50,294 nt of DNA from an uncultured Desulfuromonadales bacterium. GTDB lineage: Bacteria > Desulfobacterota > Desulfuromonadia > Geobacterales > CAIOGM01. Position numbers and translations under genes: made by a program. Shown here piece by piece: positions 20,834-25,043 of this stretch. The stretch lies in contig CAIYUY010000216.1 of NCBI GenBank assembly GCA_903929485.1, positions 1 through 50,294 on the forward strand. The letters are read 5' to 3'. How positions within the stretch are numbered: the stretch's first letter is position 1; the number at the start of each line of letters is the position of its first letter. Under the pieces are notes generated by a model. That model saw only the letters and a program-made list of their open reading frames with translations. It was not told the origin of the DNA and ran no database searches.

Positions 20834-21694
20834 ATGAGAAGTAACATAATCCAGACCCCCATGCTTATGCTCTTCTTGGCAGGCGCCCTTGCCTTACCGG
20901 GATGCGGCACCATCCTGACGGAGTCACAGGTGAAGGAGGTCGCCGCCTTCGCCGTGGCGGCCCGGGCATACGGCGCATTCCCCGGCGCGGTGATCAAAAG
21001 CCATGCGGATCTGAGCAGCCGTCGGAAAATCGTTGAAGCAGCCGGAGTAGAGAGCGGCGCAACAGCCTCGCATCAGGCCGAAGCCACCGATAAAATCCGC
21101 CAAGAGCTCGAGCAGCGGGCGGTTTCCGCCGCCATCGCCCTGGACATCCTTAATGACTATGCTTCGCTTCTGGTGAAGCTCACAGCGGAGAACTACTCCG
21201 ACGACCTCCAAGGGGACGCCGAGAAGCTCGGGCGCACCGTGGATCGCGGCATCATCCTCTACAACAAACAACGGGGAGCAAACCTGGTCGGTTTCGGCGC
21301 CTTGGCGGCTGCCGGCATGCGGGGGAGGGGCGGCATTGCGATTCTCCATGAACAGGCCCAGGCGCTGAAAAATGTGGTTACCTCCGCCGCCCCGGTCATC
21401 GAAACAATGATAGAAGAGGTTGAAAATATCCTGGCTCTTTACCTCGCGCCGCCGGACCTGAAGGGACTGAAACTCACCATGACGGATGACGGGCTGAAGG
21501 GTGCAAACGAAGCCGTACTCCTGGCCATAACCGCATTACAGGGAGCCGAAACCTATCGCGATGCCCACCGGAAACTGGCGGAGTGCGTCACCCAGCCACG
21601 CCGGTTGCTAAGCTCCGTTGACCGGATAAAAGCCTTTTCCGACCAGATAAACGAGGCGAACAGGCTGAGGAAGAAGATTCCGGGGAATTCGTAG
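20834..21694 (+). CDS. Predicted lipoprotein of unknown function
   Basis: A protein of 286 aa. AAGGGG lies about 8 bases before the ATG. A type II signal peptide with lipobox LPGC places Cys24 as the lipidated residue. The mature part is rich in Ala and predicted helical, with little Pro and no Cys, for example KIRQELEQRAVSAAIALDIL and QAQALKNVVTSAAPVIETM. The +2 residue after Cys is Gly, so outer-membrane sorting is possible. No enzyme motif is seen. It is first gene of an accessory plus-strand cluster with a broken small gene, a papain-like protease and a lipase-fold protein. I do not recognise the family. Confidence 0.85.
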   Translation: MRSNIIQTPMLMLFLAGALALPGCGTILTESQVKEVAAFAVAARAYGAFPGAVIKSHADLSSRRKIVEAAGVESGATASHQAEATDKIRQELEQRAVSAAIALDILNDYASLLVKLTAENYSDDLQGDAEKLGRTVDRGIILYNKQRGANLVGFGALAAAGMRGRGGIAILHEQAQALKNVVTSAAPVIETMIEEVENILALYLAPPDLKGLKLTMTDDGLKGANEAVLLAITALQGAETYRDAHRKLAECVTQPRRLLSSVDRIKAFSDQINEANRLRKKIPGNS

Positions 21695-21882: not shown

Positions 21883-22794
21883 ATGTCAGAGACCGTTCAT
21901 GCATCAGGCATGGGGTGGCTGCCGGACTATCCCAGCGTGCAAGACCACACCGCGCAGACAACTCAGGTGACACAAAAGCAGAAATCACGGGGACAAAGTA
22001 AATCGGTAAACGCCATGCTTACGGCCATGGGCGCGGCAACGCCGCTCCCGAAACTTCCCGTGGCCATGGACCTGAGACCCTGGTGCTCCCCCATTGAAAA
22101 CCAGGGTGCGCTGGGCTCATGCACTGCCAATGCCGGCGTGGGGATGGTGGAGTATTACGAACGTAGGGCTTTCGGCAAGCATATCGACGCCTCCCGGCTG
22201 TTTCTGTACAAAACGACGCGCAATCTCCTCAACTCAACCGGGGACACGGGCGCCTTCCTCCGCTCCACCATGGAGGCCCTGGTGCTGTTCGGTGTTCCAC
22301 CGGAAAATTACTGGAAGTATGTCATCGCGGACTTCGACAAAGAGCCCACCGCATTTTGCTACGCCTTCGCGCAAAACTATCAGGCAATCAATTATTACCG
22401 TCTCGATCCGGCGGGAACCACCACCGCCGTCCTGCTCAGCCAGATCAAGACCAACCTGGGGGCCGGGCTCCCCTCCATGTTCGGTTTTACCGTCTACAGT
22501 TCGTACACCCAGGCAGCAACCACCGGCAAGATCCCCTTTCCCACGGCGGGTGAAAAAATCGTCGGCGGCCATGCCATCATGGCGGTGGGTTACGACGATA
22601 CCATTAAAATCAAGAACAGCAACGCCGGCGCCGTGGAAACAACGGGGGCGCTCCTGATCAGAAATTCCTGGGGAACCACGTGGGGCGCCGCCGGCTATGG
22701 CTGGCTCCCCTATGAATATGTCCTTAAGGGTCTTGCCACCGACTGGTGGGCGCTCCTCAAGGAAGAATGGGTCGACACGGGGAACTTCGGCTAA
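21883..22794 (+). CDS. Papain-like (C1 family) cysteine protease
   Basis: A protein of 303 aa with AGGAG 7 bases upstream of the ATG. Papain-fold motifs in order: oxyanion Gln74 and nucleophile Cys80 in ENQGALGSCTAN, His230 in GGHAIMAVGYDD, and Asn261 in IRNSWGTTWG. All catalytic residues are present. No signal peptide or membrane segment is seen; the first 60 residues are polar and could be a pro-region or a recognition tail. Unlike animal papains it has few extra Cys. It lies between a lipoprotein gene and a lipase-fold gene. Inference: it acts in the cytoplasm or leaves the cell by a non-Sec route. Substrate unknown. Confidence 0.92.
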   Translation: MSETVHASGMGWLPDYPSVQDHTAQTTQVTQKQKSRGQSKSVNAMLTAMGAATPLPKLPVAMDLRPWCSPIENQGALGSCTANAGVGMVEYYERRAFGKHIDASRLFLYKTTRNLLNSTGDTGAFLRSTMEALVLFGVPPENYWKYVIADFDKEPTAFCYAFAQNYQAINYYRLDPAGTTTAVLLSQIKTNLGAGLPSMFGFTVYSSYTQAATTGKIPFPTAGEKIVGGHAIMAVGYDDTIKIKNSNAGAVETTGALLIRNSWGTTWGAAGYGWLPYEYVLKGLATDWWALLKEEWVDTGNFG

Positions 22795-22800
22795 TAAAAA

Positions 22801-22867
22801 AACCGTCAACCTGTTCACGTCGTAACGCGGCCGGGAGACTCATGAGCCCGACCGCGTTACACGGTTA
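22801..22867. terminator. Long inverted repeat after the protease gene
   Basis: GTAACGCGG (22822-22830) pairs with CCGCGTTAC (22852-22860), with inner CGGG/CCCG. Outer AACCGT (22801-22806) can pair with ACGGTT (22861-22866). No U-run follows, so it may be a transcript-stabilising hairpin rather than a terminator. Confidence 0.5.
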
Positions 22868-22951: not shown

Positions 22952-23767
22952 ATGAATGAATTCAATGCGGCCACAACGGGGTACGACCCTCGCAATGCTC
23001 TCTGGCTCGGCAAGGTCGCAGCCCTTGCCTACAAAGATATAACCTCCGTGGTGCAGGCGCTGCCGGGATGGGACGTCACTCCCTTTGCCCATGAAGCCAC
23101 AGACACCTGGGGTTTTGTCGCCGGAAATAGTCAATTGATCGTCATCTCCTTTCGCGGCGCCGAACCCGACAAGCTCAAGGCGTGGCTGACCAATCTGAAG
23201 GCGGAGCTGGTGGATGGCCCCGTGGGGAAGGTGCACAAAGGGTTTCATGAAGCCATTGATGGGGTATGGCAGGAGTTCGTCACCATCCTGCGCCGGATGC
23301 GGCAAAACGGTCAGAACATCTGGATTACCGGTCATGGCCTGGGTGCGGCGCTGGCGCTCCTGGCATCGGTAAAACTCCTGAATGAAAAAGTTACCACCTC
23401 AATCGAAGGGCTCTACACCTTCGGTCAACCCCGCACGGGTGATACCGACTTCGCCGCATGGCTGGACAGTGGAATGAAGAGTCGAACATTTCGCTTCGTC
23501 AACAATAACGACATTGTCCCCCACGTCCCGTTGCCGCCGCTCTACAAACATGCAGGGACTTTCTTCTATTTCGACAGCGACGGGAAACTACAGGGTGATG
23601 TAGGATTTTGGAGGTTTCTCAAGGAGCGGCTGAAGGGAAAGGTTAAGAGCCTGTTCGATAAAGAGATCGTTCCGGATGAAATTTATGATCATTCCATGAA
23701 GAGCTATCTGACGCGATTGGAAAATAATGTGGGAGTAACAACAGCCCCGCTGCCGCTTTCCGACTAA
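22952..23767 (+). CDS. Class 3 lipase-fold protein lacking the nucleophile serine
   Basis: A protein of 271 aa; GAGGTG precedes the ATG. The alpha/beta-hydrolase order of class 3 (fungal-type) lipases is clear: ISFRGA oxyanion strand, VHKGFHEA, the nucleophile elbow WITGHGLGAALALL, YTFGQPRTGD, the acid in NNNDIVPHVP (Asp187) and YDHSMKSYL (His247). The elbow normally reads GHSLG; here codon 23336-23338 is GGC, Gly129, one transition from AGC Ser. Asp and His are kept. Without Ser the protein should not hydrolyse esters by the usual mechanism. No signal peptide. It follows the protease gene after 157 bases. Inference: a non-catalytic lipid or partner-binding role, or a recent inactivating change. 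Confidence 0.9.
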   Translation: MNEFNAATTGYDPRNALWLGKVAALAYKDITSVVQALPGWDVTPFAHEATDTWGFVAGNSQLIVISFRGAEPDKLKAWLTNLKAELVDGPVGKVHKGFHEAIDGVWQEFVTILRRMRQNGQNIWITGHGLGAALALLASVKLLNEKVTTSIEGLYTFGQPRTGDTDFAAWLDSGMKSRTFRFVNNNDIVPHVPLPPLYKHAGTFFYFDSDGKLQGDVGFWRFLKERLKGKVKSLFDKEIVPDEIYDHSMKSYLTRLENNVGVTTAPLPLSD

Positions 23768-24189: not shown

Positions 24190-24549
24190 ATGAGACTACC
24201 TGCCATAATTTTTCTCTACACCTGCATGACGGGATTTGTTCTCGGCGCCGGGAATGCCGCGATGCTGGATCCGTATCAGCCTCCGCAATCAACGGAAATG
24301 ATGAGACAGGCAACACCCCTGCAGCAACCGGCGCCGAGCGCCATTACCCCCCCGATACGCACCATAGATGAGTCGGTCTATGAAAAATTCAGGAAGGATA
24401 CCCGGATAATTTCCCGTAAGGAACGAGAGAAACTGATCGACACTTTTTCCATGAGGGCTCGGAACGCCCTAAAATTGAACAACATCGACGCCGCCAAATA
24501 TTATTCCCGTCTCATGGAAATACTGAAGGAAGAAGGACGGAAACGATGA
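24190..24549 (+). CDS. Small exported protein of unknown function
   Basis: A protein of 119 aa; GGAGGT lies 5 bases before the ATG. A Sec signal peptide (residues 1-24: hydrophobic core IIFLYTCMTGFVLGA, then GNAA) precedes a Pro/Gln-rich stretch and a basic helical C-terminus (KEREKLIDTFSMRARNALKL, then AKYYSRLMEILKEEGRKR). Not recognised. Its stop overlaps the next start by four bases (ATGA), so it is co-translated with the membrane protein that follows; the two probably act together at the envelope. Confidence 0.8.
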   Translation: MRLPAIIFLYTCMTGFVLGAGNAAMLDPYQPPQSTEMMRQATPLQQPAPSAITPPIRTIDESVYEKFRKDTRIISRKEREKLIDTFSMRARNALKLNNIDAAKYYSRLMEILKEEGRKR

Positions 24550-25043
24550 AAGTTCTGTTCCTCTTCCTGATTTCCCTGGTCGCCATGGGAAGCGCCTTGG
24601 CGGGTATCTCGGAGAATTACGATTATTCCAGCGCCGTGCTTCAATCGGCGGCAAGTAACGGGAAGAAAGCCGTCGGCGGCGCCGCGCCGGAGGCGACCGC
24701 CATCACCCAGACATACGACGCCAACAACACAACATTGCACTATCATGAATGGAAAATGCTCCTGGAACGAAATCGATTGATCTACTGCATCGTGCTGAGT
24801 CTGACCGCGGTTATTTCGCTGGCCATCATGCTCTGGTTCCTCACCAAATCGAAACACTCGGCGGAGAACATCGTCAGCGCCAGCGGACTGGTATTCATCA
24901 TCTTCGGCACGATCATTCTGGTCATTCTGGCCAGTGCTGACGCCCAACTGACAGCGGCCATCGGAGTCATGGGGGCCATAGCGGGATATCTCTTCGGCAG
25001 TCTCCAGAGAGGGAGGCCGCAGAGGAATACCGGCGAAGAGTAA
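24546..25043 (+). CDS. Small membrane protein with signal peptide
   Basis: A protein of 165 aa. An N-terminal signal peptide (LFLFLISLVAMGSALAG) leads to a periplasmic stretch of about 65 residues, then hydrophobic segments at about 79-98, 111-131 and 136-152, ending in a basic tail (SLQRGRPQRNTGEE). Positive-inside reasoning puts that tail in the cytoplasm. It is coupled to the exported protein upstream by ATGA overlap and is last in the cluster, followed by a strong terminator at 25117. No family recognised. Confidence 0.8.
   Translation: MKVLFLFLISLVAMGSALAGISENYDYSSAVLQSAASNGKKAVGGAAPEATAITQTYDANNTTLHYHEWKMLLERNRLIYCIVLSLTAVISLAIMLWFLTKSKHSAENIVSASGLVFIIFGTIILVILASADAQLTAAIGVMGAIAGYLFGSLQRGRPQRNTGEE

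Follow-up and report, generated by a model that had tools for sequence, protein, structure and literature searches.

The window analysed here, positions 1-50,294 of contig CAIYUY010000216.1 of an uncultured Desulfuromonadales bacterium (assembly GCA_903929485.1), encodes at 22952-23767 on the forward strand a 271-residue protein with the fold of class 3 lipases whose nucleophile elbow carries glycine in place of serine. The reading frame is intact, and its product, the sole Lipase_3 protein of its genome, matches the Pfam Lipase_3 profile (PF01764) with an E-value of 8.8e-31 (107 bits against a cut-off of 22). Codon 129 (GGC, 23336-23338), at the nucleophile position, lies within ITGHGLGAAL, and the elbow GHGLG therefore lacks the Ser of the GxSxG motif found in active class 3 lipases. 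FRG is followed by Ala70 (GCC, 23159-23161) where an active enzyme of this class has the Ser or Thr of the oxyanion hole. The other two members of the triad are kept, Asp187 (GAC, 23510-23512) as the acid and His247 (CAT, 23690-23692) as the base, both in columns that are invariant in all 77 aligned sequences. Reading frame, codon and alignment thus bear out the preliminary description of this DNA, which had reported a GHGLG elbow with Asp187 and His247 retained. No signal peptide is evident by eye in the 271-residue protein. An AlphaFold2 model computed from the 77-row alignment (mean predicted local distance difference test score 86.4, predicted template modelling score 0.86, with lower confidence in the lid segment 71-80 and the C-terminal tail) matches Rhizomucor miehei lipase 3tgl with a Z-score of 25.0 over 228 residues at 3.0 A. 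Other matches are 5xk2 (Z 25.0), a feruloyl esterase (Z 24.9) and, more distantly, plant EDS1 (Z 19-20), and the model suggests that the alpha/beta-hydrolase fold of fungal lipases is kept.

Relatives were gathered with peptide patterns that exclude the elbow, so that Ser was not selected for. Ser nevertheless occupies this position in 164 of the 164 relatives aligned there, and Gly is found solely in the window protein, which occurs twice in the relative set (as L001 and L002). The nearest relative, 63% identical, is encoded in G002, the one other genome of the same genus with the gene; its elbow reads GHSLGG, with codon AGT for the Ser. Immediately upstream of the G002 lipase is a papain-family protease with 81% identity to the one preceding the window gene, and since both lipases adjoin this protease we regard them as orthologs. 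The only other full-length relative among 141 genomes of the order is that of G037 (46% identity, Ser), and within the genus the lipase is present in two of the four genomes examined. Among the sequences compared, Gly129 is private to the window species. The preliminary description had proposed that a Gly conserved in close homologues would denote a pseudoenzyme family and a Ser in all of them a private mutation; by that reasoning the change is private, and a conserved-Gly family among the orthologs is ruled out by the Ser in every one of them. The same description had placed GGC one transition away from a Ser codon, which holds for the non-synonymous step, although the AGT of G002 adds a silent change to it.

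Further conserved residues are lost together with the Ser. When the window and G002 proteins are excluded, 26 columns of the 77-sequence alignment are invariant across the remaining 75 rows, and the window protein deviates at exactly three of them (T70A, D77A and S129G), G002 at none. All 76 aligned relatives have Thr at position 70 and Asp at position 77, where the window protein has Ala (GCG, 23180-23182), and at position 81 it has Asn (AAT, 23192-23194) where 73 of the 76 have Asp. The result for positions 70, 77 and 81 was repeated with 83 mostly genomic relatives. In a phmmer alignment to Rhizomucor miehei lipase, FRGA is paired with FRGS, and Ala70, Ala77, Asn81 and Gly129 fall on what we take to be Ser82, Asn87, Asp91 and Ser144 in mature numbering. 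The oxyanion hole is formed by Ser82 (Thr83 in Rhizopus) and Leu145, and Asp91 is among the residues that contact docked ligands (PMC9266812, PMC11173743). Judged from the alignment, the window protein is without nucleophile, oxyanion side chain and neighbouring acidic residue. That the elbow codon is in truth a Ser codon, altered by a sequencing or assembly error, would be conceivable for a draft genome of 369 contigs, but it is highly improbable: four conserved residues in four separate codons differ while the frame is intact, and codon 77 (GAT in G002, GCG in the window) requires two base changes. A single base error is insufficient for four changed codons, which rules out sequencing error as the whole cause.

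On balance, we favour the interpretation that the window gene encodes a lineage-specific pseudolipase that is catalytically dead but maintained. As in other pseudoenzymes by definition, catalytic residues have been lost while fold and constraint are kept. The loss of hydrolysis appears well supported by the residues at the site, as a Ser-triad hydrolase deprived of both its Ser and its oxyanion side chain would be expected not to hydrolyse esters. After the split from the G002 lineage, Ser129 would have given way to Gly, Thr70 to Ala, Asp81 to Asn and Asp77 to Ala, with the fold, the Asp187-His247 pair and the remaining sequence meanwhile staying under normal constraint; joint loss of the Ser and the oxyanion Thr is indeed what is expected once catalysis is no longer selected. 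The protein probably serves in binding a ligand or partner and would have been kept because a lipid, a protein or some other ligand is bound in its former substrate pocket or at its surface. It might, for instance, regulate the papain-like protease encoded next to it.

The evolutionary rates speak to whether the gene is maintained. For the lipases of the window and G002, the pairwise ratio of non-synonymous to synonymous substitution rates (dN/dS) is 0.23, and for their proteases it is 0.10; at a dS of about 1.1 both values are rough. The two lipases form a pair in the 77-protein tree (support 100/99) with terminal branches of 0.30 for the window and 0.32 for G002, and relative-rate tests with seven outgroups counted 12-20 window-only against 19-22 G002-only changes (p 0.28-1.0), indicating no acceleration. 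Polarised by consensus, 23 derived changes fall to the window protein and 22 to that of G002. Strongly conserved sites are hit at 70, 77, 81, 129 and 225 in the former and at 182, 211 and 229 in the latter, plus 266 in the poorly aligned end. Free drift over most of the window branch would have made that branch much longer, which argues against such drift, and the gene does not appear to be an old, freely decaying one. The window losses are enriched in the catalytic set (residues 70, 81, 129, 130, 187 and 247; p 0.013), which is supportive, not decisive.

Several observations weigh against a maintained pseudolipase. The enrichment in the catalytic set weakens to about 0.06 once residue 129, the basis on which the case was chosen, is removed. 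The species is represented by one genome, and Gly129 and the other losses are seen in that genome only. Moreover, the loss may be too recent for decay to be visible, as the 23:22 counts and the dN/dS of 0.23 give a rough estimate that about the last quarter of the branch could be unconstrained. Finally, the lipase is patchy, with two of four genus genomes carrying it and the neighbouring protease usually occurring without it. It is possible, if rather unlikely, that the gene is in early decay, the enzyme having become useless in this species and its catalytic residues having been lost by chance before the frame was broken. A gene of which the order's 141 genomes have a further full-length copy only in G002 and G037 would be dispensable, and four conserved sites have gone. 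However, the protein still conforms at 23 of the 26 invariant columns and shows no rise in its total rate, whereas free decay should hit other invariant sites, and the same co-loss with Asp and His kept is seen in unrelated Gly-elbow proteins. A lineage-specific pseudoenzyme fits better than either fresh or long decay because four losses coincide with a normal rate elsewhere. Of the two readings offered in the preliminary description, a very recent inactivation by a single hit is contradicted by the three further conserved residues that are also privately lost. The other, a pseudoenzyme beside a papain-like protease, gains from the co-losses T70A, D77A and D81N at a normal rate, but the change is private rather than that of a conserved-Gly family, and partnership with the protease is unproven.

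Glycine elbows also occur elsewhere, as judged by pattern scans that detect only elbows shaped TGHxLG[GA]A. In viral contigs, the DNA pattern for TGHGLG[GA]A matched 30 stretches, four of which encode Lipase_3 relatives (L233, L259, L235 and L244), and in 395 genomes of the phylum it gave eight matches, the window's alone being a Lipase_3 protein. When Ala or Asp replaced Gly in the pattern, 30 viral stretches matched, none of them encoding a Lipase_3 relative; in these scans Gly was seen more often than Ala or Asp at the lost elbow position. Each of the five Gly-elbow Lipase_3 proteins, the window's included, retains the Asp and the His. Thr or Ser at position 70 is present in none of the four viral proteins, as opposed to all 302 alignable Ser-type sequences (308 in total), a contrast that with the window included gives a Fisher p of 2e-8, in which the independence of these related sequences is overstated. 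L233 reads FRGAEAHETKGVIAA, strikingly similar to FRGAEPDKLKAWLTN in the window protein, and the region around position 70 reads FAGDP in L259, FLNDP in L235 and FRGY in L244; these three, at about 25-30% identity to the rest, are aligned less securely at position 70 than L233. The tree pairs the window protein with G002 and puts L233 outside the 22-member clade that contains the window protein; L259 and L235 fall together elsewhere, and the placement of L244, on a long branch, is uncertain. The sequences suggest at least three separate lineages with Gly-elbow loss, at least two of them besides that of the window. Gly also appears to have been retained over some distance in the L259/L235 family, as judged from these two members only.

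L233 is encoded at 1497-2330 on the minus strand of contig IMGVR_UViG_2890355330_000002, has the FRGA and the lost-Asp pattern of the window protein, and is flanked by genes that by eye resemble a Mu-like transposable prophage. L259 (910-1677) and L235 (1245-2096), both on the minus strand of phage-like contigs, are syntenic lipase-like genes whose products are 46% identical to each other. A search of viral contigs and named phages for kin loci of L233 and L259 returned none beyond themselves.

The nucleophile elbow imposes a strained backbone that is best tolerated by Gly, and AGY is converted to GGY by a single transition; the recurrence of Gly fits both. Once catalysis is dispensable, Gly is predicted to stabilise the fold. 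Since all else is preserved and the Asp-His pair is found in all five cases, either the protein is still needed or these two residues are structural. It could also be argued from their retention in five Gly-elbow proteins that the window protein is still an enzyme, with a different chemistry that uses Asp187-His247 or another group at the emptied nucleophile site. This seems improbable, as the protein has also lost the oxyanion Thr and two Asp close by, no new conserved nucleophile candidate is seen, and Asp and His may be retained for structural reasons. Extending the interpretation as a pseudolipase beyond the window is more doubtful: we propose only tentatively that exchange of Ser for Gly with loss of the oxyanion Thr and retention of Asp and His defines a recurrent, unnamed kind of lipase-fold pseudoenzyme in bacteria and phages, which would bind a ligand or partner and would here be tied to a papain-like protease.

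With the class 3 lipases (PF01764; Rhizomucor miehei, Rhizopus) the window protein shares the fold (Z 25 to 3tgl), the GHxLG elbow, the triad Asp and His and the FRG strand before the lid, but it differs in the Gly for Ser, the Ala for the oxyanion Thr/Ser, the Asn for the Asp91 equivalent and the lack of an evident secretion signal. The 'lipase family protein' homologs of Streptomyces and cyanobacteria and the G002 protein are full-length and 35-63% identical to the window protein, and unlike it they all keep Ser129, Thr70 and Asp77. The viral Gly-elbow proteins resemble it in GHGLG, in the absence of Thr/Ser at position 70 and in the retained Asp and His, but they are about 25-30% identical to the Ser-type set, lie elsewhere in the tree and reside in phage or prophage neighbourhoods. 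The plant immune proteins EDS1, PAD4 and SAG101 match the window protein in fold (Z about 19-20), but these are plant proteins with an EP domain, while the window protein has a single domain and has lost its Ser; EDS1 and PAD4 keep the catalytic triad (PMC9528080). The EDS1 lipase-like domain has been called non-catalytic and its triad mutants retain function (PMC4203127), so that non-hydrolytic lipase-fold proteins are known in plant immunity. In a small literature search, bacterial single-domain Lipase_3 pseudoenzymes were nowhere described. Proteins like that of the window receive an automatic annotation as lipases, and absence of the elbow Ser together with absence of Thr/Ser after FRG may provide a sequence rule for dead lipase-fold proteins, because both losses co-occur in at least three lineages with the other two triad residues kept.

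The upstream neighbour of the lipase gene, at 21883-22794 on the forward strand, encodes a 303-residue papain-family (Peptidase_C1) protease that is apparently intact, with the motif residues Cys80, His230 and Asn261 present. The protease-lipase pair is kept in G002, the single ortholog of the same genus, and the two genomes offer a before-and-after comparison, within the same pair, for the role of a lipase that no longer cuts. Many genomes of the order have the protease, in most cases not accompanied by the lipase, and ten further close orthologs that were inspected had no adjoining lipase. An operon partnership by conservation is thus unsupported, and a regulatory link between pseudolipase and protease is possible. 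In G027 (L199, 3587-5514) the protease is followed, with no lipase between, by relatives of two small genes of the window (24190-24549 and 24546-25043), and in G007 (L197, 4573-10749) relatives of the same two genes follow the protease at a distance of about 4.5 kb. It may be that the lipase was inserted into a conserved neighbourhood of protease and two small genes (21883-22794 and 24190-25043 in the window). Between protease and lipase, at 22822-22860, lies a perfect 9-bp inverted repeat, GTAACGCGG ... CCGCGTTAC, which is terminator-like but has no T-run; the two genes may thus belong to separate transcripts. Upstream of the protease, at 20834-21694, lies an open reading frame for a lipoprotein-like protein of 286 residues with no Pfam match.
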